IMG/VR virus record: IMGVR_UViG_3300017770_000044
Span: 1-38,426 of that record
Strand: one strand, 5' to 3'
Length of the DNA stretch: 38,426 nucleotides
Origin: a virus
Shown here: positions 6,362-38,426 of the stretch, piece after piece
How positions within the stretch are numbered: the first letter of the stretch is position 1
Layout of the letters: every line of letters starts with the position of its first letter
The notes under the pieces: model-generated
Databases searched by the model: none
Seen by the model: the letters and a program-made list of their open reading frames with translations, nothing else
What the model was told of the DNA's origin: nothing
Translations under genes and position numbers: made by a program

Positions 6362-6379
6362 TCGTCCACAGGGGGACGT

Positions 6380-6709: not shown

Positions 6710-6710
6710 G

Positions 6711-7594: not shown

Positions 7595-8046
7595 TGTTCC
7601 CCGAGACAGTCCGCCGGGTTCGACTCACTCCGGGAGGGTGGGGAACGGATGGAACATATTCGTGGGGGACTATCCCAGACGAGACGACGGACCCCGCCGC
7701 CTTCGTCGAGATCCTCGCGACGGTGATCCCGCTCTCGGGTGAAGACACGGAGATCCTTCCCGAAGGGTATCGGAACGCCTTCGGGCTGAAGCTCGTCGTC
7801 GACCGTTCGACCGACATCCGGACCGCAAAGGCGAAGAGACACCCCGGGACGATCCCGGCGGGGACCCTCGTCAACCCGGACATGAGCGAGAGCCCTCCCG
7901 ATCTGATCGTCCTTGACGGCGAGTTCTTCGTCGTTCAGTCGGTCACGGACTATCGCTCGACCGCTCCGATCCCGTGTCGTGAGGTCGTGATCCTTCGAGC
8001 CGCTGAGACCGAGTGGCTCTCCGTCCTGTCTCCGGTGACACCGTGA
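7591..8046 (+). CDS. Probable head-closure protein
   Basis: A 151-residue neck-region protein, ATGA-coupled to the previous gene. It is beta-rich, with alternating hydrophobic segments (FVEILATVIPLSG, LKLVVDRST, LDGEFFVVQSV) and an ending EVVILRAAE. Proteins of this size and place usually stop DNA leakage from the portal channel or connect it to the tail terminator. I do not recognise a named domain, so the function rests on gene order between tail completion and terminator-like genes. Confidence 0.55.
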   Translation: MMFPETVRRVRLTPGGWGTDGTYSWGTIPDETTDPAAFVEILATVIPLSGEDTEILPEGYRNAFGLKLVVDRSTDIRTAKAKRHPGTIPAGTLVNPDMSESPPDLIVLDGEFFVVQSVTDYRSTAPIPCREVVILRAAETEWLSVLSPVTP

Positions 8047-8588
8047 TCGGGCGCGACGACATCGAGATCGGTCTCGTCGGGTGGGTTCGAGATGTCCTCT
8101 CGACTGTCCCGAACTTGACCGTCTATCGGGGCGGCTTCCCCGGACCGGTCCCCTCGGCGCCTCGCGTCCGGGTCTCTCTTCTGTCCGACTCCGGGGAGGA
8201 TCAGCCGTCGATCGAGTCGGCGGTCGTCTCGGGTCAGTATCTCGACCGGGTGACTCAGCGCCGAACGGCGACCGCGTCGATCCTCATCACGACCGACGCC
8301 CGAGCCCGCGAACTCGCCGAGACGCTCGAAGCCGCGATCGTCGGACCGGAGTCGGACAACCTCTCGACGGCGTCTTCGATCGCGATCTTGGAGGTCGTCG
8401 GATCGAGTGACGTCACCCGGAGAGCCCCGGGGACTCAGGCTCTCGAACGGGCGGTGTCTCTCGACCTTCGCGTCGGATACCGCCGAACCACCTCGGGACG
8501 TGTTAGCGTTAGAGCAACGTCCGCCGAGATCGATACAACCGTCGCAGACGGGGACTCGACTCGGACCTTCACCATAACCGCGAACTGA
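8043..8588 (+). CDS. Probable tail terminator / neck terminator protein
   Basis: A 181-residue protein starting at GTG 8043, which overlaps the previous stop as GTGA; a GTG at 8013 is possible but would overlap by 34 bases. The sequence begins with a helix (GLVGWVRDVLSTVP), then P-x-P-S-A-P-R-V-R-V-S-L-L, the usual way tail terminators enter their first strands, followed by a second helix (ARELAETLEAAIVG). Terminator proteins cap the finished tail tube and determine where the sheath stops. The gene directly precedes the sheath gene, which supports the call. Confidence 0.6.
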   Translation: MIGRDDIEIGLVGWVRDVLSTVPNLTVYRGGFPGPVPSAPRVRVSLLSDSGEDQPSIESAVVSGQYLDRVTQRRTATASILITTDARARELAETLEAAIVGPESDNLSTASSIAILEVVGSSDVTRRAPGTQALERAVSLDLRVGYRRTTSGRVSVRATSAEIDTTVADGDSTRTFTITAN

Positions 8589-8601
8589 GGGAGATCCCCC
8601 G

Positions 8602-9666
8602 ATGGCGCTCGTCGATAAATATGTGACCCTCACGATCTCACGATCGGCCCTTCCACCCGCTCCGACTGTCCGGACGATCGCCCGCGTGTCGAACGTCGCT
8701 CTGGATGGCTCGGCTCGATCCGAGAGCTTCGAGACTATCGCAGCCGCTCAGGCAGCGTTGACAGCCTCCCGGATCGACCAAGACACCTTCGACGCTATCG
8801 TCGCGATCTTCGCTCAGCGGCCTCGTCCGTCCAAGGTCGAGATCATTCGAGTCGATGTCTCCGGGGGCGAAGGATACAACGACGCCTTGATCGCCGCTGA
8901 AGCCGCCGGGGTGAAGTATAACGGGGTGATCATTGACAGCCGAACCGCCGCCGACATCGTCGCCGCGTCGAACTTCGCTGAGGCTCGCGACGTGATCTTC
9001 ATGTTCCAGAGTTCCCTCGCCGACTGGCTGACAAGTGGCGCCCCCTCTTCCTTCAGCGCGATCACGTCGAACGAGCACACCTTCGGAGTCTATCACTCGA
9101 CCGACACGGTCCAAGCCGACGCCGGGGTGATCGGATCTCGTCTCGCGTATGATCCGAACGCTTCCGCCGCTCCGGGCTTCGGTCCGGTTCGAGGGGTCAC
9201 ACAGTACACGATCACGAGCGCTCAGCGCGACTTCGCTCTCGCGAACGGGATCGGGGTCCTCGAAGAGTATGTCGCCGGAGGGACCGGGAACCTCGGGACG
9301 AATTACACGAACGGGAAGAGCCTCGCCGGGATCCGGATGGACGCTCTCGTGACTGAGTTCTGGCTGAAGCAACGGATCGAAGGAGAAGTCGCCGCCCTTC
9401 TCGTGAACGAAGCCGCCGCCGGTCGCTTCGTCCCTGTCTCGCCTTCGGGCCAGTCTCAGGTCGGCGCTATCCTCCGGGCTACCGGCCAGCGGGGAGTCGC
9501 GATCGGTCGCTTCACCGGCTCCGATGACTTCCCCGAGGGCTTCGTCGTCACGGCTCCGGACATCACGACCGCCGACAAGTCGGCTCAGCGGATCCCGATG
9601 GCGGCGACCTATAACCTCGCGATCCCGGCTCTCGCCGTCTCCATCTCGATCGACCTCACGGAGTGA
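8602..9666 (+). CDS. Tail sheath protein, DUF3383
   Basis: The contractile sheath subunit; its presence defines the phage as a myovirus. ATG at 8602 follows GAGGGAGATCC. The 354-residue protein begins with the DUF3383 start (an I-S-R-x-x-L-P-P stretch), has an alpha/beta domain (VEIIRVDVSGG, GVIIDSRTAADI), and the C-terminal TNGKSLAGIRMDALVTEFWL followed by KQRIEGEVAALLVNEAA and a final PMAATYNLAIPALAVSIS strand. It is short compared with T4 gp18 because this family lacks the outer domains. The tube gene follows after three bases. Confidence 0.9.
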   Translation: MALVDKYVTLTISRSALPPAPTVRTIARVSNVALDGSARSESFETIAAAQAALTASRIDQDTFDAIVAIFAQRPRPSKVEIIRVDVSGGEGYNDALIAAEAAGVKYNGVIIDSRTAADIVAASNFAEARDVIFMFQSSLADWLTSGAPSSFSAITSNEHTFGVYHSTDTVQADAGVIGSRLAYDPNASAAPGFGPVRGVTQYTITSAQRDFALANGIGVLEEYVAGGTGNLGTNYTNGKSLAGIRMDALVTEFWLKQRIEGEVAALLVNEAAAGRFVPVSPSGQSQVGAILRATGQRGVAIGRFTGSDDFPEGFVVTAPDITTADKSAQRIPMAATYNLAIPALAVSISIDLTE

Positions 9667-9669
9667 CCC

Positions 9670-10143
9670 ATGCTTACCTATGCTTACAGCCTAGCCGCCG
9701 TCGACCTGACGATCTCCGGAGTTCTGATCCGGGGCTTCCGGAAGTCCGACAGCATCACGATCAACCCTCGCGGCGCTCAGATCGAAGTTGACACGGAAGG
9801 GATCGACAATCCGATCGCCTATCCGACACTGGAGAAGGCCTTCGACGTGACGATCAACGTCTCGCACGTCTCCCCGGGCCATCGCGACCTTGCGACCCTA
9901 CTCCAGAACCAGTTGACGATCCTCGGCATACGACCCGGGACGACCTTCGCGGTCGTCGGGGGGATCATGCCTCTGATGTCCTTTCAACTCATCGACCGAG
10001 CGACCGGCGACACCTTCGTGGAAGAGGCGGCGATCCTCGCTGGGTACCCTGAGAGCGCCTACGCCTCGACGCCGGGTTCTCGAAGTTACTCGATCGTCCT
10101 TCCGTCGCCGGTCGTCACCCTCGGGACGACGATCCTCGGCTGA
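9670..10143 (+). CDS. Tail tube protein (DUF3277-like)
   Basis: Forms the inner tube through which DNA passes. The 157-residue protein begins with a Y-S-L-A-A-V-D-L-T-I-S-G-V strand, followed by GFRKSDSITINPRGAQIEVD and an ending rich in Val/Leu strands, the pattern of DUF3277-type tube subunits. Size, beta character and position immediately after the sheath agree. Part of the expected G-x-D-G segment is changed to DTEGIDN. Thirty-four bases without a gene follow before the chaperone start. Confidence 0.72.
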   Translation: MLTYAYSLAAVDLTISGVLIRGFRKSDSITINPRGAQIEVDTEGIDNPIAYPTLEKAFDVTINVSHVSPGHRDLATLLQNQLTILGIRPGTTFAVVGGIMPLMSFQLIDRATGDTFVEEAAILAGYPESAYASTPGSRSYSIVLPSPVVTLGTTILG

Positions 10144-10177
10144 ACCTTCCACCGATACCTGACCGCAGGGGGTCACA

Positions 10178-10732
10178 GTGTACCGTTTCCAACTCAGAGA
10201 CAGTTCGGGCGAGCTTCATCAATACGAAGGCGCTCACCTTCGACCGTCAACCTCAGCAGATGTCGCGACGACAATCGAGCGGATCTTCGGCGAGGCCGTG
10301 ATCTCGGGAGGGCTCAGCCTCCTTGAAGTTCTCGCCCCCCTCGTCGGTCGAGACCCCGAGGCGATGACGCCGGAGGCGGTCGCGGGTCTTCTCTTCCGAG
10401 GCGTCTCGGATGGCGGCAAGATCGACACCTCGAAGATCGCGAAGTCGATCTCGGGCCTTCTCGGACATCCGGAGTGGCCCGGGTTGCTTCCGAAGCTCTT
10501 CGACGGCGTGAGTCGGGACGGGGTTCGACTCGTCTCGCCACAGGTCAAGGGTGATCCGTCCCTCGTCGCGTTCGATCGGGCCTATCTCGGGAACTGGGAC
10601 GAGTTGAAGCTCGCCGCCCTGATGATCGTGGTTCGGAACCGTTTCCTGAGTGGCTCTGGGTACTTCGGCGACCCGCTCCAGAGTCTGATCGAGAGTTGGG
10701 TCGACCGAGAGGAGAAGCCCGCGAACGACTGA
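10178..10732 (+). CDS. Tail assembly chaperone, N-terminal frame
   Basis: A 184-residue protein that starts at GTG 10178 after GCAGGGGGTCACA. Position between the tube and tape-measure genes is the place of tail assembly chaperones (lambda gpG/gpGT), which coat the tape measure during tail assembly. The visible sequence is mostly helical, with a middle SLLEVLAPLVGRDPEAMTPE and a last helix FGDPLQSLIESWVDREEK. The stop at 10730-10732 lies within an open frame in the -1 register that continues to 10920. I infer the role from position and this two-frame layout, since the sequence itself shows no signature I can name. Confidence 0.62.
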   Translation: MYRFQLRDSSGELHQYEGAHLRPSTSADVATTIERIFGEAVISGGLSLLEVLAPLVGRDPEAMTPEAVAGLLFRGVSDGGKIDTSKIAKSISGLLGHPEWPGLLPKLFDGVSRDGVRLVSPQVKGDPSLVAFDRAYLGNWDELKLAALMIVVRNRFLSGSGYFGDPLQSLIESWVDREEKPAND

Positions 10733-10920
10733 CCCGATCCGGGGTACGGTGGGAGCTATGGAGGATCGTTCTCGATCCCGCGATCCCGGCGAGTCTCACT
10801 GAGGTGTCGGGGTGGAGTTATGTCGAACTGGTCGAGGCCCACTTCGTTCTCGACGACATCGCGGAGCAACGGCGCAAGATGAAGGAAGAGGCGAAGAGAC
10901 GGAGGGGGAGACATGGCTGA
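10696..10920 (+). CDS. Tail assembly chaperone, second frame (-1 extension)
   Basis: An open frame in the -1 register of the chaperone gene, running to 10920. Its only upstream start is TTG at 10696, within the chaperone, with a poor ribosome binding site. The peptide after that point (VRWELWRIVLDPAIPASLTE, then SYVELVEAHFVLDDIAEQ and a Lys/Arg-rich end) looks like the C-terminal half of two-frame tail chaperones, with a W-x-x-W segment and an acidic helix. It may be made as a -1 frameshift fusion. No canonical X-XXY-YYZ slippery heptamer is visible in the overlap. The stop overlaps the tape measure start by 8 bases. Confidence 0.5.
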   Translation: MGRPRGEARERLTRSGVRWELWRIVLDPAIPASLTEVSGWSYVELVEAHFVLDDIAEQRRKMKEEAKRRRGRHG

Positions 10921-12385
10921 AAAGAACATCATCCGCGATCTTCTGCTCCGGATCGGAGTCGAAGCCGACGAGAAGGAGCTCGAAGACTTCGAGAAGGGTC
11001 TCGCGAAGGCCAGAAACACGATGCTGGCTCTCATTGCCGCCTCGACCGCCGCCGCCGCCGCGATCACCGCGCTAGTCGTCGCGACATCGGAGGAAGTCGA
11101 CGAGGCGGGGAAGCTCGCGGAGTCCCTCGGGCTCTCGGTCGAAGCGATGACCGAGCTCCAGTTCGCCGCCGGACAAGCGGGGATCGACTCCTCGAAGCTC
11201 TCGATCGGCCTGAAGACTCTCGCCCGGAACATGGAGGCCTTCAGCCGAGGATCGGGAGAGGCACAGGAGGCGTTGAAGGGGGTCAACCTCCAAGCCGCCG
11301 ACGGGTCTCTCGTCGAACTCGATGTCGCCGTCGAGCGTATCGCCGACAAGTTCGCGAAGCTCGAAGACCCGGTGAAGAAGGCCGCCTTCGCTCAGAGGAT
11401 CTTCGGTGAGTCCGGAACCTCGATGAACCTCCTCCTGAAGGATGGAGCCGCCGGGGTTCAGGCCCTACGGATGGAAGCCGCCGCCCTCGGGATCACGATC
11501 AGCGGTGAAGCCGCCGAAGCCGCCGCCGATCTGAACGATGAACTAGCCCGGAGCGCCGGAGTCGTCGCGGGTCTCCGTCGCCGGTTCGCGATCGGTCTCG
11601 CCCCAGCCCTCGAAGGGGTCTCCCAGCGGTTCCGAGAGCTAATCGGGGAGAACCAAGAGTTTATCGAGACGAAGGTCGATCAAGCGGTGACACTAACGAC
11701 CGCTGCGGCCCGGATCGCGATCCCGGTCCTCGCCGGGTTGACCGCCGGAGTCATCGCCCTAACTGTCGCGACTGTCCCCCTCGCGACTATCTTCAGCCCG
11801 ATCGTTCTGACGGTCCTCGGGATCACCGCCGCCTTCGTCGCTCTCGTCGCCATCGTCGACGACGTGATCTTAACATTCCAAGGCGGCGACACCGTGATCC
11901 GCCGTGTCGGGATGTCGATCGGTCAGTTCATCGTGGATCTCGTCGATGGGTTCGGGATCGCCCTCGACAGTCTCGGGGAGTTCTTCGACTATGTCGCTGA
12001 GTCGATCTCGTCTGCGATGGAGCCGGTCGTCGAGATCTTCGAGGACATCCTCGGATATATCGCTCAGATCATGGACTTCTCACCGGGCGAGCTTCTGAGC
12101 GACGGTCTCGACTTCATCGGAGGGGGGATCGATAGTGCCGCCGGGTTCGTCGGCGATCTCTTCGGGGGAGGCGATACCGGAGGCGGCTCGGGTGGTGGCA
12201 TGATGAGCGCCGGATCGGAGGCGATGACCCTCGCAGCTAGTCCGGCGGGTGGAGGCTCGACGACGAACGTCGGAGGGATCTCGATCGATGCTCGGGGGAT
12301 GGACCCGGTTCAGGTGGGGCAGGAAGTACGCCGCGCCCTCGATGAGCAAGCCACGCTGGCTTCCGAAGCCTCCGGGGGCGCCTGA
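10913..12385 (+). CDS. Tail tape measure protein
   Basis: Sets tail length and is ejected into the host. The 490-residue protein follows GGAGGGGGAGAC. Residues about 1-230 are helical with Ala-rich stretches and the family-typical LAESLGLSVEAMTELQFAAG block; residues about 255-325 contain two or three very hydrophobic segments (IAIPVLAGLTAGVIALTVA, VLGITAAFVALVAIV) suited to membrane insertion. The C terminus is Gly-rich, then ends in a short conserved-looking GISIDARGMDPVQVGQEVRR segment. At roughly 0.15 nm per residue it predicts a tail near 70 nm, an inference from the general rule. The stop overlaps the next ATG by one base. Confidence 0.88.
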   Translation: MAEKNIIRDLLLRIGVEADEKELEDFEKGLAKARNTMLALIAASTAAAAAITALVVATSEEVDEAGKLAESLGLSVEAMTELQFAAGQAGIDSSKLSIGLKTLARNMEAFSRGSGEAQEALKGVNLQAADGSLVELDVAVERIADKFAKLEDPVKKAAFAQRIFGESGTSMNLLLKDGAAGVQALRMEAAALGITISGEAAEAAADLNDELARSAGVVAGLRRRFAIGLAPALEGVSQRFRELIGENQEFIETKVDQAVTLTTAAARIAIPVLAGLTAGVIALTVATVPLATIFSPIVLTVLGITAAFVALVAIVDDVILTFQGGDTVIRRVGMSIGQFIVDLVDGFGIALDSLGEFFDYVAESISSAMEPVVEIFEDILGYIAQIMDFSPGELLSDGLDFIGGGIDSAAGFVGDLFGGGDTGGGSGGGMMSAGSEAMTLAASPAGGGSTTNVGGISIDARGMDPVQVGQEVRRALDEQATLASEASGGA

Positions 12386-12939
12386 TGAGCTTCGAGATCT
12401 TCCATCCGAACGGGAGGTCGTTCCGGTTCGACGCCACGGCGAGCTACTCGATCCCGACGTCCTCCACTGCGACGAGATACCGCGTCGACAGTTCAGCGAA
12501 CCCGATCGATCACGTCACGAGAGCGCCGAAGACACTCCGGGCGACTGTCTCAGTCACCTATACGCCGCCGAACGGGTCGACCGGTCCAGTCGGGATCGAC
12601 CGAGTTCGAGCGGCTCGGGACTTCCTCGCGACATGCGACGCGACTCCGGTCGAGGTCTTCGCCCCGAGAGAAGGGATCTCCGGTCCGTGGCTTCTCACCG
12701 CTACAGGCTACACCGTGACCCGAGCCGGTCGCGCCCGGTTCGAGTTGTCCTTCGTCGAGTGGAGGACGCTCGAAGTCCAGACGACGACGTTCGCGAGGGT
12801 ATCGGCTCCCCGTCCGGCTTCCTCCGAGGCCGAAGGCGAGGCGGATCGAGGAACACAGTCGACGACCGACGAGGGCGCCCCGGGTCCGACGAGCTTCCTC
12901 GCAGCGGGTCTCGACTTCCTCGGGATCGGGGGGGATTGA
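12385..12939 (+). CDS. Dit-like baseplate/tail protein (N-terminal Dit-like domain)
   Basis: A 184-residue protein right after the tape measure, where contractile systems encode a gp53/LysM or Dit-like protein that links tube, hub and wedge. Residues 1-135 are beta-rich, with an H-V-T-R-A-P-K segment, a Y-T-P-P loop, RVRAARDFLATCDATP and ATGYTVTRAGRARFELSFVE, matching the strand order of the Dit-like N-terminal domain. There is no LysM domain; instead the C terminus is a Ser/Glu/Thr-rich linker ending in a short hydrophobic patch. The start is a TGATG junction with the preceding gene. Confidence 0.65.
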   Translation: MSFEIFHPNGRSFRFDATASYSIPTSSTATRYRVDSSANPIDHVTRAPKTLRATVSVTYTPPNGSTGPVGIDRVRAARDFLATCDATPVEVFAPREGISGPWLLTATGYTVTRAGRARFELSFVEWRTLEVQTTTFARVSAPRPASSEAEGEADRGTQSTTDEGAPGPTSFLAAGLDFLGIGGD

Positions 12940-13295
12940 TGCTGAGACTCGACCTAGATCCGACGCGAGCCGCTTCGGTTCAGTCCTTCACCCTCGACGG
13001 CGTCGAGATCCTCTTCAGGGTCGCATGGAGGCCCTCGGCTCAGTCGTGGTTCGCTTCAGCCGAGACCGCCGAGGGGGTCTCCCTCTTCACGGGTCGAAGG
13101 CTCGCGGCGAAGTCCGTCGTCGACAGTGATCGAACCCTTCCGGGTCATCCGGGCGGCGCCTTCGTCGTCATCGGTCCGGATCCCTATGTCCAAGGGGATC
13201 TGGGTCGCTCGCTCGTCGTCCTATACGGAACCGACGCCGAGATCGAGAGCATCACGACCCGCGATCCGCTCTCCGGGTATACGGTGACACCGTGA
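12939..13295 (+). CDS. Baseplate plug protein, cyanophage Pam3 gp18-like
   Basis: A 118-residue beta-rich protein in a TGATG junction. It shows the Pam3 plug pattern: FTLDGVEILFRVAWRPSAQSW near the start, a GRRLAAKSVV turn and a final GRSLVVLYGTDAEI strand. In Pam3 this protein lies in the centre of a very simple baseplate between hub and tube. The gene lies between the Dit-like and hub genes, as in Pam3-type clusters. The stop overlaps the hub start as GTGA. Confidence 0.7.
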   Translation: MLRLDLDPTRAASVQSFTLDGVEILFRVAWRPSAQSWFASAETAEGVSLFTGRRLAAKSVVDSDRTLPGHPGGAFVVIGPDPYVQGDLGRSLVVLYGTDAEIESITTRDPLSGYTVTP

Positions 13296-14113
13296 CCCAG
13301 TTCGACCGACAGATCCGGACGGAGATCATCACGGGATCGACCCGGACGATCATCGAGGGCGGTCGAGACGCTCTCCGGATGTCCTTCGAGGCCGTCCTGA
13401 CTGAGTCGACGACGGCGAACTCGGGGAAGGTCACGATCTGGAACCTGTCGAACTCGACGGCGAGACTATTCGAGAAGGACGACGCCGAGATCGCGATCTT
13501 CGCCGGGTACCGTCTCGCGGGCGGTCCGGTTCAGGTCTTCCGGGGGTCACTCGCCGCCGACGGCTTCCGGGATGACCGATCGACCGAGACCCGGATCTCG
13601 GCTGCGACGCTCCGGGATGGCGGGACCGCTCTCCGGGATGTCGTGATCTCCCTGAACGTCGCCGGGTCGACGACCTCCGACGCGATCCTCAGACGGCTCG
13701 CGGGGGAGCTTGGAGCGTCGATCGGAACCTTCAGCCCGGGGAGGTCTCGAACCTATCGCCGAGGGTTCTCACACTTCGGACCCGCTCGAAGGGCTCTCCG
13801 GACTCTCGCCCGGGACTCGGCTTCGGTCGTCTCGATCACGGATGGGAGGATGACGGTATACCCTCGGAACGGGGAGCGACGTTCGACCGGGTTCCGGATC
13901 TCATCGCGATCGACCCTCATCACAGCGAAGAGTACGAAGGAAGGCGTCGAGGTCGTCTCGACTCTTCTCCCGTCGATGAGGCCCGGGGATCGGTTCCTCC
14001 TCGACGACGAGGCCCTCGGGGGTGACTATATCGCAGCGAAGGTTAGACACTCAGGGGACACTGAGAGCGGCTCTCCCGACTTCCTGACCACGATCACCGC
14101 GAGACGAACATGA
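13292..14113 (+). CDS. Baseplate hub protein (gpD / gp27-like)
   Basis: Trimeric hub on which spike and wedges assemble. GTG at 13292 overlaps the previous stop as GTGA. The 273-residue protein begins with strands (DALRMSFEAVLTES, NSGKVTIWNLSNST), then AEIAIFAGYRLAGGPVQVFRG, the usual first barrel of hub proteins with its W-N-L-S and Y-x-x-x-x-x-x-F-x-G motifs, and later RRALRTLARDSASVVSI and TEGV-like strands. Position before the spike gene supports the call. Confidence 0.8.
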   Translation: MTQFDRQIRTEIITGSTRTIIEGGRDALRMSFEAVLTESTTANSGKVTIWNLSNSTARLFEKDDAEIAIFAGYRLAGGPVQVFRGSLAADGFRDDRSTETRISAATLRDGGTALRDVVISLNVAGSTTSDAILRRLAGELGASIGTFSPGRSRTYRRGFSHFGPARRALRTLARDSASVVSITDGRMTVYPRNGERRSTGFRISSRSTLITAKSTKEGVEVVSTLLPSMRPGDRFLLDDEALGGDYIAAKVRHSGDTESGSPDFLTTITARRT

Positions 14114-14856
14114 CCCGACCCGCCGCCGGACTCGTCTCAGCCTTCCGTTCGATGGCGGAGGACTCGATCCCCGACGGGGTTCAGGTCGCGATCGACGCTC
14201 GGGTCGTGTCGTATGACCGAACGACTCAGACGGCCTCGGTCCAGCCTGTCGTCCGGGCGGTCTATCAGATCGGGGATCGCGAGGTCGCCGTCGAGCTTCC
14301 GGAGTTGAAGGGGGTCCCGGTTCAGTGGCCCGCGACATCGGGGGCGGCTCTCCATCTCCCTCTCGCGGCGGGCGATCGTGTCCTTCTGATCATCCGAGAC
14401 AGGTCACACGACGAGATCGACCAGAACGGGATCCCGTCCTCCGGGACAGTCGAACCGGACTCAGCTCGACGCTTCAGCCTGTCGGACGCGGTCGCGGTCC
14501 CGGCCCGAGAGGAGGGCGGACTGCCTTCGGAGGCGACGAACGCCTCGGATCCGGTCCTATATATGACCGCCGGGGGGACACTTCGGATCGGAGATGGCGC
14601 CGCGACTCAGGCCCTCGCCCTAGCACAAGAGACCGCCGCCAAGATCCGACGGATCGAGTCCTATCTGAACCAGTCGACGTTCTCGGTCGTCCCTACGGGG
14701 GGCGGGCCTGCGATCGGGGTGACGACGGCCCCGACCCCTTCCCCCTTCGCCGGGGCGACCGGATCTCTCTTCGCGTTAGCGTCCGCCGTCGCCGCCCCCG
14801 AAGCCGCAACCCTGACCGCGAACGTCGCCTCGACTCGCGTCTCGACCGACGGGTGA
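14110..14856 (+). CDS. Baseplate spike protein, gp138 / gpV-like
   Basis: The tail-tip spike that pierces the outer layer of the host. The 248-residue protein is ATGA-coupled to the hub. Residues about 20-130 form an OB-fold typical of the gp138 N-terminal domain: VAIDARVVSYDRTTQTASVQ, then VPVQWPATSGAALHLPLAAG and DRVLLIIRDRSHDEI. After it comes a short beta region with LRIGDGAATQAL, a helix and an Ala/Thr-rich end. No His-x-His tip motif is visible in the last residues, so any metal-binding tip must be formed elsewhere. Confidence 0.8.
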   Translation: MTRPAAGLVSAFRSMAEDSIPDGVQVAIDARVVSYDRTTQTASVQPVVRAVYQIGDREVAVELPELKGVPVQWPATSGAALHLPLAAGDRVLLIIRDRSHDEIDQNGIPSSGTVEPDSARRFSLSDAVAVPAREEGGLPSEATNASDPVLYMTAGGTLRIGDGAATQALALAQETAAKIRRIESYLNQSTFSVVPTGGGPAIGVTTAPTPSPFAGATGSLFALASAVAAPEAATLTANVASTRVSTDG

Positions 14857-14860
14857 TCCG

Positions 14861-15286
14861 ATGCCTGATCTCCGACTGACCTCGACTCTCGACATCGCGA
14901 CCCCGGCGAGCTTCGTCGATGGGGTGGAACTCATCGAGCAACGGATCCGAGTCCGCCTCTCGACCTTCCGGGGCGAGTACCCTCTCGACACGTCCGCCGG
15001 TCTCGACCTCGTCGGGTTCCTTCAGACGATGCCCCCCGACGTCGGTCTCGTCGCCGCTGTCGTCGCTCGGGAGGTCCTCGCCGTCGATGGGGTCGGGTCG
15101 ACTGAGATCACCTCGTCGAAGTTCAACCGGACGACCCAAGAGATCGAGATCAAGGTCGACGCCTTCATCGACACGGAAGCCGAACCGGTCGTGGTCGAGG
15201 TCGAGGCGCGGATCGGTCCGAAGAGTGTCGGGAGCGACCCCGGGAGCTATGTTCTCACAAGATACTCCGGAGGATCCGCCCGATGA
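14861..15286 (+). CDS. Baseplate wedge protein, gp25 / gpW family
   Basis: A 141-residue wedge protein that connects the sheath to the baseplate. It has the family's order of elements: a short N-terminal strand region, the helix VELIEQRIRVRLSTFRGEYP with the E-Y-P-L-D-x-x-x-G-L-D loop, and a C-terminal beta hairpin (EIEIKVDAFIDTEAEPVVVE). The spacing from the spike stop is four bases and the stop overlaps the next start by four. Confidence 0.8.
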   Translation: MPDLRLTSTLDIATPASFVDGVELIEQRIRVRLSTFRGEYPLDTSAGLDLVGFLQTMPPDVGLVAAVVAREVLAVDGVGSTEITSSKFNRTTQEIEIKVDAFIDTEAEPVVVEVEARIGPKSVGSDPGSYVLTRYSGGSAR

Positions 15287-16416
15287 CTCTATATACCCCG
15301 AAGCGAGCCGATCAGATCCTCGACGAACTTCGCGCCGACATCGTCGACCGCGCCGGGTTCGAGATCGACTTCTCGCAGGACGAGGCGCTGGGTCTTCTCA
15401 CCGCCGCGATCGCTTCCGTTCTCGCGGATCAAGACGGGCGCCTCGGGATCCTCGCGGCGAACACGGATCCCGAGACGGCGGTCGATGACGGCCTCGACAA
15501 CCTCGCCCGGATCACGGGAGTCGAACGGAAGGCGGCGACCCGGAGCCGGTACACTGTCCGAGCGGTGTCGAGTGACACGACGAGGATCCTCGCGGCGGGA
15601 TCGATCCTCGAAGGCGGGGGGACGGATGACCTCCAACGGTGGAGCGTCGTCGCCGACACCTCGATCACGACAGCCGAGACGCAGGTCGTCATCGAGGCGG
15701 CGGACGCCGGTCCGATCACGCTCCCGAGTTCAGGGACGACCGATCTCCGGAAGGTGACGCCCGCCCCGAACATCACCGTGAACTATGACCCGACCGACGG
15801 CGACAGCTTCACGATCGGGAACGCGAGACAGACGGACGGAGAGCTGAGAGTGGCTCGACGGTCCCGGCTCGCCTCCCCGGCTTCAGCCTCGGAGCCCGGG
15901 ATCCTGTCGGCGGTCTTCGCGGCGGGGAGCTGGGTCGAGGCGGTCGCGGTCACGGAGTCGACCTCGGGGATCACGGTTCGGATCGTTCCGGAGCCGGTCG
16001 GGAACGACAGAAAGATCGCTGTGGCTTCGGCGATCTTCAAGGCGAAGGCCTTCGGCGTCGCCACCCTCGGGACTGTCTCGGTCACGGTAACGAACCCCGA
16101 CGGGGTGACGACTCACACGGTCCGGTATTCCGTCGGAACGACTCAGGCGGTCGCGGTCGCGGTCGCGGGTCTATCGGTCGCGACCGGGTTCGCCGTCGAT
16201 GACGTGAAGGCTGAGATCACCTCCTCGATCCGGGACCTCTTCTCGAACCTCACCGTCGGTGATCCGGTGTACTTCGTCAAGGCGTCCGCCGCCTTCGGTC
16301 GAGTTCCGGGCGTGATCGGTGGGTCGCTCACACTTGACGGAGGGGCCTCCGATGTCTCGCCGTCCGTCGGGACGACTCTTCTCATCCTGTCGGGTGACGC
16401 GGTGACATTCTCATGA
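15283..16416 (+). CDS. Baseplate J-like protein (gp6/gpJ)
   Basis: Main wedge component that forms the ring of the baseplate. The 377-residue length and the N-terminal TLYTPKRADQILDELRADIV, FSQDEALGLLTAAIASVLAD, then DGLDNLARITGVERKAATRS are the hallmark of baseplate J proteins. The middle is a beta domain (residues about 85-180), followed by the GELRVARRSRLASPA stretch and a C-terminal region with NDRKIAVASAIFKAKAFGVA. It is coupled to both neighbours by four-base overlaps. Confidence 0.88.
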   Translation: MTLYTPKRADQILDELRADIVDRAGFEIDFSQDEALGLLTAAIASVLADQDGRLGILAANTDPETAVDDGLDNLARITGVERKAATRSRYTVRAVSSDTTRILAAGSILEGGGTDDLQRWSVVADTSITTAETQVVIEAADAGPITLPSSGTTDLRKVTPAPNITVNYDPTDGDSFTIGNARQTDGELRVARRSRLASPASASEPGILSAVFAAGSWVEAVAVTESTSGITVRIVPEPVGNDRKIAVASAIFKAKAFGVATLGTVSVTVTNPDGVTTHTVRYSVGTTQAVAVAVAGLSVATGFAVDDVKAEITSSIRDLFSNLTVGDPVYFVKASAAFGRVPGVIGGSLTLDGGASDVSPSVGTTLLILSGDAVTFS

Positions 16417-23364: not shown

Positions 23365-23736
23365 TCAGCGGCTCGGGATCTCGGCGCGATCGTTGAAGCG
23401 GTACACCTTCTGAGAGTGACCGCTGCGAAGACGGATCCGGCCCGCCTCCCGGATGATCCCGGACTCGATCGCGACCTTCCAAGCGCGAGCGATACCCGCC
23501 TGACTGGGGAAGGTCGGAAGCTCGTCGGAGTCCAGCCCCCGAGCCGCGTAGCAGTCCCGCATGAACCCGAGCGGAGTCCTATCTTTCAGGCGGTGCTGGT
23601 TGATCGAGCAACAATATGCGTCGAACGCCGCGTAAATACACTCATCTTTTGTGAGGGTCCCGAATCGGGCGCGGGTGGCGGTCGCGGTGATCGCGAACAT
23701 ACGCAGGATCGTGGTGTCGGTCGTTCGGGTCGTCAT
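23365..23736 (-). CDS. Orphan protein behind a repeated leader (copy C)
   Basis: A 123-residue, basic protein of unknown function. The second half (RAWKVAIESGIIREAGRIRL, then SGHSQKVYRFNDR) looks like a winged-helix DNA-binding unit, in which a helix is followed by a two-stranded wing, similar in layout to the protein encoded at 26703. The gene starts after GGAGCCGATACC, the same ribosome binding site as two other genes of this block, and stands behind a related leader. A regulatory role is inferred. Confidence 0.5.
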   Translation of the reverse strand: MTTRTTDTTILRMFAITATATRARFGTLTKDECIYAAFDAYCCSINQHRLKDRTPLGFMRDCYAARGLDSDELPTFPSQAGIARAWKVAIESGIIREAGRIRLRSGHSQKVYRFNDRAEIPSR

Positions 23737-23830
23737 GGTATCGGCTCCGGATGTTCTCGCCGCCTTCAGTGGCGGACGCAGGTCCAGTAACCCCGCCCGG
23801 GGCTAGTGTCACGGAGTCGGACGCAGAAAG
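23737..23830 (-). promoter_or_regulatory. Repeated leader, copy C (degenerate)
   Basis: This 94-base leader resembles two others at 27024-27128 and 27695-27799. Shared parts, seen from the start codon outward, are the GGAGCCGATACC ribosome binding site, a GCCGCC-loop-GGCGG hairpin, and AGTAACCCC at 23787-23795 (GGGGTTACT on the coding strand). The second arm of this palindrome is damaged, and only AGAAAG at 23825 remains of the 18-bp palindrome. Its distal part touches the 3' end of the phosphoesterase gene. Confidence 0.6.
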
Positions 23831-23831
23831 G

Positions 23832-24947
23832 TCAGATCCGATCCGTGTCCCTGTCCCGGTACTCCGATCGCATAGCTTCGAGGATCGCGAGTCCCCGGTC
23901 GAGATCCCACGCGACCGTCATCCGTCCCGGACCCGACGAGGTCGGATCGATGATCACGAGACAGGACTGGCCGAAGCGCCCCGAGTGAAAACCCTTTTCA
24001 CGGGCGAAGGCGTCGTCGTGTTTATACCCCCGAACCCGGATCGACATCGGACAACGGTCCCGAACCCCGGGAAGCTCTCGACGATGCTCGCCCCACTCGT
24101 GAGTATGACCGGCAACGGCCAGATCGATGTCGGGATCCCACAGGGTCGCCCGGGTTCCTCCGTGGACCGGAGAGTACTGAGACCGACCTCGGAAGTCGTG
24201 ACGGACGACGAAGGTCATCGGGTCGTCGCCATCCTCGAAGACGAAGCGGATCCTCAGTTCGTGTTCGTCATAGTACCGGACCGACGGGGAGCGGGTGATC
24301 TTGAAGTAGTGATCGACCCCTCCGGCGCCGGTCGCCCAGTGATCATGATTCCCCGAGATGACGGCGAGCCAATCCACCCCGGAGTCACACAGGAGCCACT
24401 CGACGAGCTTCCACCCCTCCGAGGCTGTCGTGGGTTGCTTCGAGTATAGCTTCGACAGTCGAGCCCCGATCCAGTGATTCTGATGATCTCCGACCGACAC
24501 CCCGAGAACGCCCTCGGCGGCGGCGACCGCCTGAACCTGATCGTGGAGAAGGTCGAACCGACACCCCGGATCGTCGATATGAACATCGCCGACGAGCCAC
24601 AGGCCGAAGGGCGCCGACGACATCCGACAGACCCGGGTCCGAGACTGGATCCGACCGACGGCCCGCCGTGAGTCCTGAAGTCTCCGGGCGATGAGGTCCT
24701 CGATCTTCTCTTCGAGGTCCTCCCGGATCACGGGTGAGTCATCGAAGGGTTCGAGCGGCGGCGGCTCGATCATCTTCTCGCGATCCATCTCGTCGAGAGT
24801 CCTCCGGATCGTCCATCGGTTCGTCTTGACCCCGGTCCTCTCCGTGATCTCTCGGGCGATCTGGGCGTGACTCAGCCCCGCTGCTCTCCACTTCATGATC
24901 TCCGGTCCGTGTGTGCTCGTCAGGTCTCGGAACGTCCAGCGCTTCAT
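23832..24947 (-). CDS. Calcineurin-type metallophosphoesterase with N-terminal HTH
   Basis: A 371-residue protein with all the metal-binding motifs of the family: G-D-V-H (Asp121, His123), GDHQNHW (153-159), GNHDHW (199-204), and AGHTHEW (279-285). Before them, residues about 22-55 form a helix-turn-helix (LSHAQIAREITERTGVKTNR), as in some phage phosphoesterases. The substrate is unknown; nucleic acid is suggested by the HTH. ATG at 24947 is chosen because GAGGGGGAACC precedes it; a GTG at 25007 would overlap the upstream stop as GTGA and add 20 residues. Confidence 0.8.
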   Translation of the reverse strand: MKRWTFRDLTSTHGPEIMKWRAAGLSHAQIAREITERTGVKTNRWTIRRTLDEMDREKMIEPPPLEPFDDSPVIREDLEEKIEDLIARRLQDSRRAVGRIQSRTRVCRMSSAPFGLWLVGDVHIDDPGCRFDLLHDQVQAVAAAEGVLGVSVGDHQNHWIGARLSKLYSKQPTTASEGWKLVEWLLCDSGVDWLAVISGNHDHWATGAGGVDHYFKITRSPSVRYYDEHELRIRFVFEDGDDPMTFVVRHDFRGRSQYSPVHGGTRATLWDPDIDLAVAGHTHEWGEHRRELPGVRDRCPMSIRVRGYKHDDAFAREKGFHSGRFGQSCLVIIDPTSSGPGRMTVAWDLDRGLAILEAMRSEYRDRDTDRI

Positions 24948-26702: not shown

Positions 26703-27023
26703 TCAGCAGCCGATCCCCATGGCGCAGGCGATGTCGTGTCCGTTACCCCTTCGGCTCAGGGCGGTCTGTGCGACGACTTCGTCGAACCCGTTCGTCTCGA
26801 AGTTCATCACCCAGAGCCGGCTGTCGTACTGTCCCCGGGTTCGTCGGATGCCCTCGAAGTCATCCTCGCAGAAGACAAAGCCCCGGCGGGACATCGCCCG
26901 GAGAGCCTTCCGGACGGCCTTCAGATCGAGCCCGGTCCGGTCGGCGATCTCGGAGGTCGTCGCGGACTGCTCACGGCTCAGGGTGGAGAGGACGATGGCG
27001 GTCTGAGTTGCGTTCTGTGTCAT
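26703..27023 (-). CDS. Small winged-helix protein behind repeated leader B
   Basis: A 106-residue protein. Residues about 24-53 (ATTSEIADRTGLDLKAVRKA, LRAMSRRGFV) form a clear winged helix-turn-helix, followed by a wing region with FEGIRRTRGQYDSRLWVM. The ATG at 27023 after GGAGCCGATACC is chosen because the leader in front of it is conserved in other copies; an upstream in-frame start would read through that leader. It may bind the palindromes found in its own leader, which would make it a self-regulating repressor; this is inference. Confidence 0.6.
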   Translation of the reverse strand: MTQNATQTAIVLSTLSREQSATTSEIADRTGLDLKAVRKALRAMSRRGFVFCEDDFEGIRRTRGQYDSRLWVMNFETNGFDEVVAQTALSRRGNGHDIACAMGIGC

Positions 27024-27128
27024 GGTATCGGCTCCAGTGTTCGCGCCGCCTTGAGTGGCGGACGCTAGTCCAGTAACCCCGCCCGGGGTCACTGGGTAGG
27101 GTCGGATCGCAGAAAGATCGATCTTTCT
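27024..27128 (-). promoter_or_regulatory. Repeated leader, copy B
   Basis: Leader of the winged-helix gene. From the start codon outward: ribosome binding site GGAGCCGATACC, GCCGCC-loop-GGCGG hairpin, the inverted repeat CAGTAACCCC/GGGGTCACTG (27071-27094, one mismatch) and the perfect palindrome AGAAAGATCGATCTTTCT at 27111-27128. The palindrome starts 88 bases from the A of the gene's start codon, exactly as in copy A. Confidence 0.7.
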
Positions 27129-27145
27129 GAGGTCCCGGTTCGGGT

Positions 27146-27694
27146 TCAGTCTCGGATCATCTCGGCGAACGCCTTCTGGCTGACCTTCGTCCCGTCGACA
27201 TAGATCAGCGCGGGCCACTGGTTGAAGAGCTTCCCCTTCGACGAGACGTTCAGGATCCGCTTCTGTGTGATGAGGACAGTCGAGCCGCCGACCATGCCGA
27301 ACACCTCGAACCCGCCTGCGCCCTGAAGTCGGAGGGTGAAGGCCTCGTCGAGATCGCCGACCTTCGAGAGAACCTTCGCGACGATAGCGTCGATCGTGTC
27401 GCTCGCGAACCGGTCCGCAGCCTTCGCGACCTTCGCGTGGTCGAGGCGAGCGTCGAGGCGCTGGATGTCCGTAAAGCTACGATGGCCCTGCGAGTCGAGG
27501 AACGGCGCGATCGCCTTGAAGGCTCCGAAGTTCCGACGACAGCGACGAGCCTTCGAGACGTGACCCCGAGTCTTCCCGAAGAGATGGATCAGGCGGTCAA
27601 GCTGAGACTGAACGCTCGCAGCGTAGTCTTCCTGAAGGGCGGTCCGGACAGTCTCGAAGAGGGCGGCGACTCGGGTCTCAGTGAAGTGGCTCAT
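27146..27694 (-). CDS. Orphan protein behind repeated leader A
   Basis: A 182-residue, basic protein of unknown function, first gene of the leftward block. The ATG at 27694 follows GGAGCCGATACC in the conserved leader. Residues about 1-110 are helical and rich in Arg/Lys (GHVSKARRCRRNFGAFKAI); residues about 118-182 form a beta domain (FEVFGMVGGSTVLITQKRIL, NVSSKGKLFNQWPALIYVDG). The end resembles a fold I have seen only in unnamed phage proteins. As first gene it may be an early regulator or a host-takeover factor. Confidence 0.5.
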   Translation of the reverse strand: MSHFTETRVAALFETVRTALQEDYAASVQSQLDRLIHLFGKTRGHVSKARRCRRNFGAFKAIAPFLDSQGHRSFTDIQRLDARLDHAKVAKAADRFASDTIDAIVAKVLSKVGDLDEAFTLRLQGAGGFEVFGMVGGSTVLITQKRILNVSSKGKLFNQWPALIYVDGTKVSQKAFAEMIRD

Positions 27695-27799
27695 GGTATC
27701 GGCTCCAGTGTTGGCGCCGCCTTCAGTGGCGGACACCAGACAAGTAACCCCGCGAGGGGTTACTGGGTAGGGACTAAATGAAGAAAGATCGATCTTTCT
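27695..27799 (-). promoter_or_regulatory. Repeated leader, copy A, in divergent region
   Basis: Leader of the first leftward gene. It has the GGAGCCGATACC ribosome binding site, the GCCGCC-loop-GGCGG hairpin, a perfect inverted repeat with arms AGTAACCCC/GGGGTTACT at 27743-27764 (4-base loop) and the perfect palindrome AGAAAGATCGATCTTTCT at 27782-27799. The region between the divergent genes (27695-27883) contains no coding sequence I can support. The central palindrome could be an operator for both directions. Confidence 0.7.
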
Positions 27800-27853
27800 C
27801 AGTACCCTATACGCGAGGACGGCCTCGACGAAGTTCTCGACGGTGACCCCGGC

Positions 27854-31184: not shown

Positions 31185-33164
31185 ATGAACTCAGCGGAGA
31201 AGTTCGCACGGGTCGCCGAGGAGGCGTCCCGGGCTTCAGACTATGACGCCGCCCGAGCGGTCGTCCGGGGATACCTGTCGTCATGGCACAGCGATGTCCG
31301 ACACCTCGCGGATCCTCGGGTCGCCCTTCAGGTCGACACCGCGATCGCCATCCTCGGAGCCGTGAAGGGCTGCGGGGCTCTCGCGAAGTCCATCTCGACC
31401 GCTATCGAGAAGGCTCGGGAGGCTCGTCCGAAGATCGTCGAGTTGGAGGCCGAAGCGGTTCGCCTCGTCCACTTCGTCGGGGAGAAGGCGCCGGGACCGG
31501 TCGGGGATCTGATCATGCCTCGGGGCTTCGTCATCACTCCGGAAGGGATCGGCGGTCCCGCGAAGGCGGACTCGGACGATCGTCCCCTCATCGCCTCGCG
31601 TCCGGTCTATATCGCCGCGATCGTTCGAGCGATCGAGGGCGGAGAGTACCACGCCGATCTCGTGTGGCGATCCCCGGCGGGGACGTGGGAGGTCGGGACC
31701 TATCCTCGGCGAGTCCTCTCGGACTCCCGATCGATCGTGAAGCTCGCGGGCGACGGTGTCCCGGTCGACAGTGGAACGGCTTCCGGTCTCGTCCGATACC
31801 TGTCCGCCTTCGAGCGGGCGAACGATGAGGCCCTGCCGATCGAGCGAGCGGCGTCCGTCATGGGGTGGCAAGGCCCCATGGGTCGGTTCGGGTTCCTGTG
31901 GGGATCGACTTCGATCGGGGCTCCGGGTCGGGGGGTCCGTCTCATCGTCGAGGGCGGGAAGCAAGAGATCGCCGACAGCTTCAGCGCCTCGGGATCGCTT
32001 CACGCTTGGGAGCGCCTGATCTGGGACCCGATCCAGTCTCACCCGAGATCGGTCCTCGCGGTCTATGCCTCGATCGCTCCGGTCATCCTCGGGATCGTGA
32101 ACGCCGCCCCGGGGTTCGTCGTCGACATCGCCGGGACCTCGACGGGCGGGAAGACGACCGCCCTCCAAGTCGCCGCGAGTGTCTGGGGCGACCCGGCTCG
32201 ACTGATCGGATCGTGGTCCGATACTCGGGCGAGCATTGAGCACGCGGGATCGATGTCCTGTCACCTCCCGACCTTCCTCGACGATACGAAGGAAGCCCGA
32301 GACAACCCCTCGAAGGTGATCGAGGTCGTGTATCAGATCACCGGAACCCGCTCGAAGCGACGAGCGACCCCGGACGGACTTCGACGCACGGCGAGCTTCC
32401 GGACTGTCCTGATCTCCACAGGCGAGATGCCGATCACCTCACACGGGACCGACACGGGAGCCGCCGCCCGCGTCCTCCCTCTTCATGGGTGGCCACTCTC
32501 CGGACCGGACGCCCGGAGCCTCGCCGAACAACTGAAGATCGCGAGCTTGGAGAACTTCGGACATCTCGGGCCGAGGGTGATCGAGTGGCTCGTCGCGAAC
32601 CGATCGTCGTGGTCGATCATCCGGGAGGGGTGGAACGCTACCCGGGAGGAGTTCGCCGAACGAGCCGCCGAACGAGTGACCGGAAGGGCGAAGGCGTTCG
32701 CGGGAAGGGCGGCGCCCTATGTCGCGACCCTTCACACGGTCGCTCAGATCCTCGCTCGGGCTCTGAACTATCCGGTGAACGACGAGGCCCTCGGGGTTCT
32801 TGAACGGGAGGCGATGAGCGGGGCGAGGGTAGCTGAGAGACATCTTCAGGCCCTGCGGGACCTCTTCGGATGGCTCGCGACTCGCTCGACGGCCCGAGAT
32901 GGCTCCGAGGACCGTGTCGCCCATGAGGTCATATATCGGTGGGATCCGGTCTCGAAGGACGGTCCCGACGTCATCGCCCGAAGTCTCCGTCGATGGCTTC
33001 AGGGCGAGGGATACCAGCTCGACATCATCGAGGACTGGGCTCGCGAAGGCTTGATCGTGACGAACGGGGGCCGCCGGACTCACCCGGTCCGGTTTGCCTC
33101 TTCAGGGTCTCGCCCGTCCTGCTACCGGTTCACCCCGGAAGCCGTGAAGATCGCCGAGGCCTAG
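31185..33164 (+). CDS. DUF927 primase/helicase-like ATPase
   Basis: A 659-residue protein, likely the phage replicative or primase-associated helicase. Its middle has the DUF927 pattern: Walker A GTSTGGKTT (317-325) followed by ALQVAASVWGDP, then WSDTRASIEHAG, a Walker B-like LPTFLDDTKEA, YQITGTRSKRRATPDGLRRT and a VLISTGEMPI sensor segment. The N-terminal 130 residues carry helices with no recognised primase motif; the C terminus is a winged-helix-like region. Good ribosome binding site (GTGGAGTAACAG). It stands immediately before the origin-like region, as expected for a replication gene. The stop overlaps that of the minus-strand gene. Confidence 0.85.
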   Translation: MNSAEKFARVAEEASRASDYDAARAVVRGYLSSWHSDVRHLADPRVALQVDTAIAILGAVKGCGALAKSISTAIEKAREARPKIVELEAEAVRLVHFVGEKAPGPVGDLIMPRGFVITPEGIGGPAKADSDDRPLIASRPVYIAAIVRAIEGGEYHADLVWRSPAGTWEVGTYPRRVLSDSRSIVKLAGDGVPVDSGTASGLVRYLSAFERANDEALPIERAASVMGWQGPMGRFGFLWGSTSIGAPGRGVRLIVEGGKQEIADSFSASGSLHAWERLIWDPIQSHPRSVLAVYASIAPVILGIVNAAPGFVVDIAGTSTGGKTTALQVAASVWGDPARLIGSWSDTRASIEHAGSMSCHLPTFLDDTKEARDNPSKVIEVVYQITGTRSKRRATPDGLRRTASFRTVLISTGEMPITSHGTDTGAAARVLPLHGWPLSGPDARSLAEQLKIASLENFGHLGPRVIEWLVANRSSWSIIREGWNATREEFAERAAERVTGRAKAFAGRAAPYVATLHTVAQILARALNYPVNDEALGVLEREAMSGARVAERHLQALRDLFGWLATRSTARDGSEDRVAHEVIYRWDPVSKDGPDVIARSLRRWLQGEGYQLDIIEDWAREGLIVTNGGRRTHPVRFASSGSRPSCYRFTPEAVKIAEA

Positions 33165-33400
33165 CGCCACTCACCGCCGATCCGGGTGGGAAACCCGTCT
33201 TGGAACGTGAGACACTTCCACCCCGTCGAGGCGAGAGCCTCCTCGGGCGTCGCCCCGACGATGACCCGCGCCCGATACGTCGCCGCCGGGTTCAGAATGA
33301 CCCAGCGCCCGTCCGACAGTCTTCGGAGGGTCGCTCGGGTCTTCGTATGCCTCCACACGACGACCCCGTCGATCCGAACCTTCCGCCATCGCTCGACCAT
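33161..33400 (-). CDS. Small basic protein, lone minus-strand gene
   Basis: A 79-residue, Arg-rich protein with GGAGGTGA six bases before the ATG. It has a beta-rich pattern (VRIDGVVVWRHTKTRATLRR, LSDGRWVILNPA) and ends EALASTGWKC with F-P-T-R-I-G-G. Its stop codon overlaps that of the DUF927 gene through the palindromic CTAG. GAGGGTTACC lies 24 bases upstream. I do not recognise the family. Being transcribed from the origin-like region towards the DUF927 gene, it could modulate replication; this is inference. Confidence 0.55.
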   Translation of the reverse strand: MVERWRKVRIDGVVVWRHTKTRATLRRLSDGRWVILNPAATYRARVIVGATPEEALASTGWKCLTFQDGFPTRIGGEWR

Positions 33401-33423
33401 GGGATCACCTCCGACCGCCGATC

Positions 33424-33433
33424 GGTAACCCTC
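33424..33433 (-). promoter_or_regulatory. GAGGGTTACC element before the minus-strand gene
   Basis: Ten bases shared with the elements at 27854-27864 and 33865-33875, again about 20-24 bases before a start codon and just before the ribosome binding site. Orientation matches the direction of the gene. Confidence 0.45.
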
Positions 33434-33503
33434 GAAGCCTGTCAGGACGACACCGATCCGCCCTGACGGCGAGAGTCGACGTCCGACGGGGATCGTCCGA
33501 ACC

Positions 33504-33826
33504 CTGTCAGGGTGTCAGTATTCACCCCCAAAGCGGTACTGACAGCGAGACCGCCCGAGGGACCGACCTTCTCCCCCGTTGTCAGTATAGACTGAGAAGA
33601 TCTCTCACTTCAAAGTATGACTGAGGACCCCTCCCCCGATCATCCGTTCAGGGGGGGGTGTGGTGGAGGGTCTAAAGAGGCGCGACACCTTCCGCCAGTA
33701 CTGACAAAGGGCGAGACAGGGGGAAGGACCGGGGCTCTCGCTGTCAGTAGTCCCGGCGCCCCGAATACTGACACGCTGACACCCTCGGCGCGATCACCTT
33801 CGGAGGCTCGCTCTCGCTGTCAGTAG
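33504..33826. repeat. TGTCAGTA iteron array, candidate origin or operator region
   Basis: Seven exact copies of TGTCAGTA: forward at 33513, 33580, 33742, 33818 and reverse (TACTGACA) at 33537, 33699, 33766. Partial TGTCAG copies lie at 33440, 33505 and, reversed, 33776. Two pairs are inverted with exactly 16 bases between them (33513-33544 and 33742-33773). The 17-mer GCTCTCGCTGTCAGTAG occurs twice (33734-33750, 33810-33826). A lower-GC stretch is at about 33585-33625 and a C-run/G-run hairpin at 33631-33658. This fits an origin with initiator sites or a large operator. No gene is supported in 33401-33895. Confidence 0.6.
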
Positions 33827-33864
33827 CAGAAAACGACCCGACGGGGTGGCGGGATCGCCCCGGG

Positions 33865-33875
33865 GAGGGTTACCC
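33865..33875 (+). promoter_or_regulatory. GAGGGTTACCC element before the RuvC-like gene
   Basis: The same 11 bases as at 27854-27864, ending 21 bases before the GTG start at 33896, with GGGAGGTGA in between. Confidence 0.45.
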
Positions 33876-33895
33876 TTCTCTCGGGAGGTGAGATC

Positions 33896-34561
33896 GTGAA
33901 ACACTTCAAGGTTCAACAGTGGACGGAACCCGGTCGGCTCTTCGTCGGCATTGACCCCGGACCGAGGGCGGGCGCCGCCGCCGTCATCGAGTCGGAGCCC
34001 GGAGGCGGCTTCGACCTTCGGTTCGCGATGACATGGAAGGCGAGAAGGTCAGGGGGTCACCGGATCCGGGCCTTCATTATGCACGCAGAAGGGGAGGTCG
34101 TCGATCACACCTTGACCGACTCCCCATTCGAGGTCTTCCGACGACTCGCCGGGGGTCTCGATCCCCTGTGGGGAGATCGGTCGGTTCAGCCCTTCACGAC
34201 GGCGGCGGTCGAGGGCCTCTTCGCGATCCGCACTAACGGCCTGATCCCTCTCGCCGAAGACGCGGGGGGATGGGTCGCCGTCCTCGGGCTACTGACCCAC
34301 GGCGACATCCTTCGCCCGGGGTACTCGAAGTGGGTCCCCGCCGTCTCCCGGATGACGACGAGCGCCGGGAAGGCCACGATCGACGAAGGCCTCGCGGACT
34401 GCCTTCACGGAAGGCCCTCGAAGGTCCGGTCGAGCATCATCGAGTGGGATCTCTTCTGGGACAGTTGGAAGGGAACATGGACCGCCGACGAACATCTCGT
34501 CGACGCGATCGGTCTCGCTCTCTTCGCTTCACCCGGGAAGCTCGTCGAGGTGTGTCGATGA
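33896..34561 (+). CDS. RuvC-like Holliday junction resolvase (RNase H fold)
   Basis: A 221-residue nuclease probably resolving branched DNA before packaging. GTG at 33896 follows GGGAGGTGAGATC. It has the RuvC pattern: first strand FVGIDPGPRAGAAAV with Asp20, the middle acidic residue in TTAAVEGLF (Glu106), and the C-terminal TADEHLVDAIGLALFA with Glu199, His200 and Asp203. The SAGKATIDEGLADCL segment is the usual basic helix region. Length is somewhat above RuvC because of an insertion at residues about 40-95. Confidence 0.75.
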   Translation: MKHFKVQQWTEPGRLFVGIDPGPRAGAAAVIESEPGGGFDLRFAMTWKARRSGGHRIRAFIMHAEGEVVDHTLTDSPFEVFRRLAGGLDPLWGDRSVQPFTTAAVEGLFAIRTNGLIPLAEDAGGWVAVLGLLTHGDILRPGYSKWVPAVSRMTTSAGKATIDEGLADCLHGRPSKVRSSIIEWDLFWDSWKGTWTADEHLVDAIGLALFASPGKLVEVCR

Positions 34562-38395: not shown

Positions 38396-38426
38396 ATGAG
38401 CCTATTCGATGACGCCCTCGACGTCC
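38396..38426 (+). CDS. Probable first codons of the portal gene (cut by window end)
   Basis: Three bases after the amidase stop, ATG begins a frame reading MSLFDDALDV up to the last base. The portal frame at the left end begins L-I-D-T-F-R-A-D, which continues well from this. Joined with a 2-base overlap (the terminal CC equals the first CC), the frame is kept; joined end to end it is off by one base. This suggests one split gene and a circular map, with a trimming error or a missing base at the join. Confidence 0.5.
   Translation, partial: MSLFDDALDV

Follow-up and report, generated by a model that had tools for sequence, protein, structure and literature searches.

A mirror-symmetric iteron array beside a DUF927 helicase gene as a candidate SaPI/PICI-type replication origin of a tailed phage

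Introduction

What is the function of a dense cluster of one short word, repeated in both orientations beside a helicase gene of a tailed phage? The window, the stretch of 38,426 bases that was analysed, is the whole virus record of such a phage, with portal, major head protein, tail sheath and terminase genes present. A preliminary description of this DNA had proposed the cluster as a candidate replication origin, had recognised no Rep-type initiator and had concluded that the binding protein would be new. Origins made of iterons are known from mobile elements: the SaPI initiator Rep recognises iterons in an origin that lies immediately 3′ of the rep gene (PMC7581432), PICI origins always contain two iteron sets around an AT-rich region, and a PICI rep-ori drives plasmid maintenance (PMC6092414). 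The array, its surroundings, its neighbouring helicase and comparable loci were therefore analysed together.

Results

The array lies in 33401–33895, the largest gap between likely genes on visual inspection of the ORF list, which agrees with its earlier description as the only large non-coding region. On one side, a small convergent ORF of no known family (79 aa; 33161–33400, minus strand) separates the array from the helicase gene, and on the other, the next gene (33896–34561, plus strand) encodes a weakly RuvC-like protein, a resolvase candidate that matched PHROG 159 at E = 0.0096 only. Measured from the stop codon of the helicase gene, the array spans +340 to +660. A tRNA search of the record found none, an Rfam search of the record was empty, and neither a tyrosine integrase nor a serine recombinase was found in the record. 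Protein scans with the helicase and the RuvC-like protein found no relative carrying the array region, and the sole near-identical contig, found via the head protein (L007, 13.4 kb, from another sample; 99.98% identical over the 12.6 kb compared), covers window positions 3755–16321 only and not the array region.

The 8-mer TGTCAGTA has exactly seven copies in the 38.4-kb record, all of them inside 33513–33825, against an expectation of 0.11 and a maximum of 2 in dinucleotide shuffles of the whole window. The earlier claim of seven sites in both orientations within 313 bases is thus exact, and the genome-wide count against expectation that accompanied it as a proposed check revealed zero exact copies outside the array. 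Moreover, no other non-trivial 8-mer of the window shows such strong local clustering; with one mismatch allowed, nine more scattered sites were found in the window, close to the roughly six expected by chance. The exact matches are located at 33513–33520 (+), 33537–33544 (−), 33580–33587 (+, the left inner iteron), 33699–33706 (−, the right inner iteron), 33742–33749 (+), 33766–33773 (−) and 33818–33825 (+). The last of these lies outside the exact core and is mirrored only by a degenerate site, CGTCAGGG, at 33461–33468 (−). In addition, two outer TGTCAG half-sites stand in tandem with the 33513 and 33766 sites, at 33505–33510 (+) and 33776–33781 (−; start 33774 on the 8-mer grid), respectively. 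The two inverted pairs with a 16-bp spacer noted before are both real, as is the 17-bp repeat GCTCTCGCTGTCAGTAG, which occurs twice (33734 and 33810). A literature search for the 8-mer found nothing relevant among the papers listed.

The preliminary description had not noticed that the layout is an exact mirror. The start pairs 33513/33766, 33537/33742 and 33580/33699, plus the half-site pair 33505/33774, each sum to 67279, so that four pairs, one of them made of TGTCAG half-sites, lie on exactly one dyad centre at about 33643, giving the layout +[8]+[24]−[43]+[119]−[43]+[24]−[8]−. Four exact mirror pairs were obtained in 0 of 20,000 random placements of nine oriented sites, and the pair formed by the degenerate 33461 (−) site and the 33818 (+) site falls on the same centre as the core sites. 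Furthermore, the arms of the array form a diverged interrupted inverted repeat (33463–33823; 33463–33523/33763–33823 at 74% and 33537–33587/33699–33749 at 73%), which is 69–74% complementary, and a blastn comparison between the two strands of the window aligned 126 nt at 69% across these arms.

The lower-GC stretch described inside the array was confirmed. Its best 40-mer, 33579–33618 between the innermost sites, is the most AT-rich part of the array and a candidate melting site; its AT content of 65% is equalled by only 0.008% of genome 40-mers, which puts it among the few most AT-rich, and AT over the full 111-bp centre is only about 42%. The C/G-run hairpin reported in the same region is present as sequence, but its stability is no better than that of shuffles (z = −0.14), and it was rejected as a significant element. 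GC skew, another of the proposed checks, has no turning point at the array, which neither supports nor refutes an origin.

The gene upstream of the array encodes a DUF927 helicase (659 aa; 31185–33164, plus strand), which by its sequence belongs to the SaPI Rep/Cch family of self-loading helicases and is a candidate origin-binding, self-loading initiator. The protein matched Pfam DUF927 (E = 1.3e-40) and the PHROG 'DNA primase/helicase' (E = 1.9e-82), and phmmer related it to PDB entries 8tch ('Pathogenicity island protein', 7e-29) and 5dgk ('Active helicase', 2.4e-8), with the Walker A motif GTSTGGKTT and other motif positions conserved. A profile of 12 DUF927 proteins without a SaPI-like member aligned to residues 25 to 553 of PT1028 Rep, C-terminal region included; PT1028 Rep aligns almost identically with 8tch, and the C-terminal region aligns within the DUF927 family. 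A single-sequence AlphaFold model of the helicase (pLDDT 37) was too poor for use. The earlier statement that no Rep-type initiator is present is therefore wrong, as the adjacent protein has homology to both SaPI Rep (8tch) and Cch (5dgk), and the conclusion that a new protein binds the sites is not supported. By analogy with these proteins, it would be the natural candidate to bind the array, and the small proteins previously put forward for band shifts are not first candidates.

The occurrence of arrays at other helicase genes was evaluated in a blind test of 41 other DUF927 genes from phages, plasmids and genomes of the phylum of locus L014 (Alphaproteobacteria in its record title), in which an array was defined as a 7-mer occurring at least five times between −100 and +500 bp around the stop codon and exceeding all 40 dinucleotide shuffles. 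Such a repeated 7-mer array was found at the 3′ end of 25 of the 40 testable genes and was absent by this test from 15, while the controls scored 2/35 in upstream windows, 0/41 inside genes and 1/30 downstream of dnaB. Among other helicase families, the same test was positive for 4/15 D5_N genes and 7/26 DUF3987 genes. The iteron words differ among the DUF927 loci (AGGTGAA, GGTAACC, GGCAACA, GGGGACA, TGGGACA, GAAGACA and others); variation of the word within a constant helicase family fits each helicase having its own specificity. Neighbouring opposite-strand sites in the surveyed arrays cluster at about 20–24, 41–44 and 49–55 bp, and the site spacing has a helical period near 10.25. Mirror symmetry reached p<0.05 in only about 9 of the 25 arrays. 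The SaPI-like PT1028 has the layout +[9]+[11]+[24]−[43]+[9]+[97]−[43]+.

The TGTCAGTA sites with their exact dyad and AT-rich centre, the family of the adjacent helicase and the arrays recurring 3′ of DUF927 genes were all observed here. Mirrored sites around an AT-rich spot, with the gene of a self-loading helicase alongside, most likely constitute a replication origin, and a SaPI-like helicase combined with arrays of varying word and recurring short spacings points to a known kind of origin in a tailed phage. Therefore, we consider it very probable that the array serves the phage as a replication origin of the SaPI/PICI type, with the DUF927 helicase as its putative initiator. The original proposal of a candidate origin is well supported by the homology of the helicase to a known initiator, the recurrent 3′ arrays and the AT-rich centre. 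Counting against this reading, the array starts about 340 bp past the helicase stop codon, beyond the small convergent ORF and farther than in most relatives, and 15 of the 40 DUF927 loci had no array in the blind test.

Scanning viral and genome contigs for the DNA pattern also revealed TGTCAGTA clusters at the 3′ ends of primase/helicase genes outside the DUF927 family, namely PriCT_2 and VapE-like genes (L003/L004), a D5_N/DUF5906 gene (L005), a Prim-Pol/DUF3987 gene beside an actin-like gene (L016) and an AAA_25 gene, whose array consists mostly of the variant TGTCAGTG (L027). In L003–L005, the sites have the orientation opposite to that in the window, and the 23–24 and 43 bp steps are kept. 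Comparison of the DUF927 C-terminal region with the C-termini of the other helicase families by hhalign detected no homology; a shared DNA-binding domain is therefore not claimed. One word beside helicases whose C-termini lack detectable homology speaks for binding of the sites by a different initiator, a small phage protein or a host protein, which is compatible with the array being the phage's SaPI/PICI-type origin. We regard this as unlikely, as these loci were chosen by searching for TGTCAGTA, DUF927 replicons keep the helicase family while the iteron word varies freely, and SaPI Rep and Cch2 bind their own iterons (PMC7581432). Since the loci were selected by the word itself and iteron words vary in such replicons, the sharing of TGTCAGTA by several helicase families may be a coincidence within a limited vocabulary.

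A genome-wide search for a three-site pattern yielded 19 loci, many of which are other kinds of repeats. As support, these loci were set aside except for L016 and, less clearly, L026; they include dispersed Isoptericola/Puerhibacterium repeats and sites near recombinase genes. In the Isoptericola and Puerhibacterium loci (L015, L017, L023, L024, L025), repeated modules occur at several places, made of TGTCAGTAC...GCGCA sites whose orientation alternates, at spacings of 34/28/34 bp. In Phocaeicola (L012, 3708–3790), five TGTCAGTA sites directly follow a tyrosine-recombinase-like gene and precede a long ORF resembling an outer-membrane receptor, a possible invertible control region. In the Anaerolineae contig L016 (2062–5541), the Prim-Pol/DUF3987 gene, the iteron array and the actin-like gene adjoin one another, resembling a plasmid or phage module for replication and segregation.

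For the region as such, the main rival to an origin is a cooperative operator, on which a phage repressor or activator would occupy the mirrored sites, loop the DNA and control divergent promoters of the 33161–33400 (−) ORF and the 33896 (+) gene. Mirror-symmetric operators exist, the ORFs on either side of the array are transcribed divergently, a promoter-like match (33584–33613, minus strand) lies within the array, and a wHTH protein is encoded at 26703–27218. However, with zero sites elsewhere in the genome, this explanation needs a single-target regulator with 7–10 sites; similar arrays follow DUF927 genes on their 3′ side in unrelated replicons, irrespective of what is encoded next, and an operator has no need of an AT-rich centre. 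An operator is thus improbable. Mirrored sites can also mark element ends, and two TGTCAGTA arrays in low-GC prophage-like sequences lie not at a helicase gene but near a tRNA-like sequence identified by eye (L006, 6623–6700) or overlapping an integrase gene at its 3′ end (L018, 3780–3985), but integrase or transposase binding sites, as attP arms or element ends, are very unlikely here because no tyrosine integrase, serine recombinase or tRNA was found in the record, and the position and layout of the array track the DUF927 helicase family.

Other features of the record were also recorded. A 117-nt repeat is present in three copies (23734–23850, 27020–27136 and 27691–27807; 61–85% identical to the middle copy), each of which ends at a likely minus-strand start codon and contains an inverted repeat, for example GTAACCCC...GGGGTTAC; it is a candidate shared promoter, operator or leader. 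The word GGGTTACC has five copies in the window versus 0.35 expected, and those at 27856 (+), 33424 (−) and 33867 (+) lie about 24–29 nt upstream of the likely starts 27884 (+), 33400 (−) and 33896 (+). At the end of the record, an ORF with an ATG at 38396 runs off the sequence (38396–38426). It may supply the N-terminus that the portal gene lacks at the start of the record (1–133), with the two out of frame by one base if joined directly, and the sequence may be a permuted genome that is nearly complete.

Discussion

By analogy with what the literature describes for SaPI Rep, Cch and Cch2, initiation at the array would depend on the DUF927 protein acting as a self-loading, MCM-like helicase. 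Its C-terminal domain would bind the TGTCAGTA iterons in their two mirror-image sets, and two hexamers might then assemble face to face on these sets. The AT-rich stretch between the innermost sites would melt, and each hexamer could load on one strand, leading to bidirectional unwinding.

A broader reading is that, in phages, plasmids and islands, several self-loading helicase families (DUF927, D5, VapE-like and Prim-Pol/DUF3987) have one common origin layout, located on the 3′ side of the helicase gene. Iterons would flank a melting site as mirrored sets placed on a helical grid; the spacings, about 9, 24, 43 and 100 bp, would recur, and the iteron word would change. We put this forward tentatively, with somewhat more doubt than confidence. 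If it is true, it would allow sequence-based origin prediction in many mobile elements that are still uncharacterised. A recurring geometry with a variable word makes such origins predictable and testable. For the present phage, a candidate origin and initiator are assigned.

Several known systems resemble the array in part. The minimal replicon of the archaeal plasmid pRN1 requires 166 bp downstream of its replication operon (PMC4234260), but the helicase families of pRN1 and of the alpha/crr system of satellite phage P4 differ from the DUF927 family of the phage. Attachment sites with integrase arm sites differ in that no tyrosine or serine integrase was found in the record. Closer are SCCmec Cch and Cch2, which, like the system proposed here by analogy, combine a self-loading helicase and a C-terminal DNA-binding domain with a putative iteron origin downstream (PMC7581432). 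Cch is itself a DUF927 protein (PDB 5dgk), whereas Cch2 is in the D5/Primase_Cterm helicase family and its putative origin has only three 5-nt direct iterons (PMC7581432).

The closest counterparts are the SaPI/PICI origins, such as those of SaPIbov1 Rep and EcCICFT073 pri-rep-ori (PMC7581432, PMC6092414). The phage differs from these in its iteron, TGTCAGTA, and its exact dyad, in a high-GC genome whose AT-rich stretch is modest, in the absence of a recognised primase gene beside the array, and in the approximately 340 bp and small convergent ORF that separate the helicase gene from the array. Nor does it resemble a PICI satellite as a whole, being full-size, with its own capsid and tail genes and no integrase found in the record. 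In common with these origins, a predicted DUF927-family helicase is encoded beside the array, the array lies 3′ of the helicase gene with the intervening ORF as the deviation, and multiple short iterons form two sets with an AT-rich stretch (33579–33618) between them; moreover, the spacings are nearly the same as in PT1028 (24, 43, ~100 and 43). This kind of origin is already known from staphylococcal pathogenicity islands, and what is new here is its probable carrier, a full-size tailed phage.
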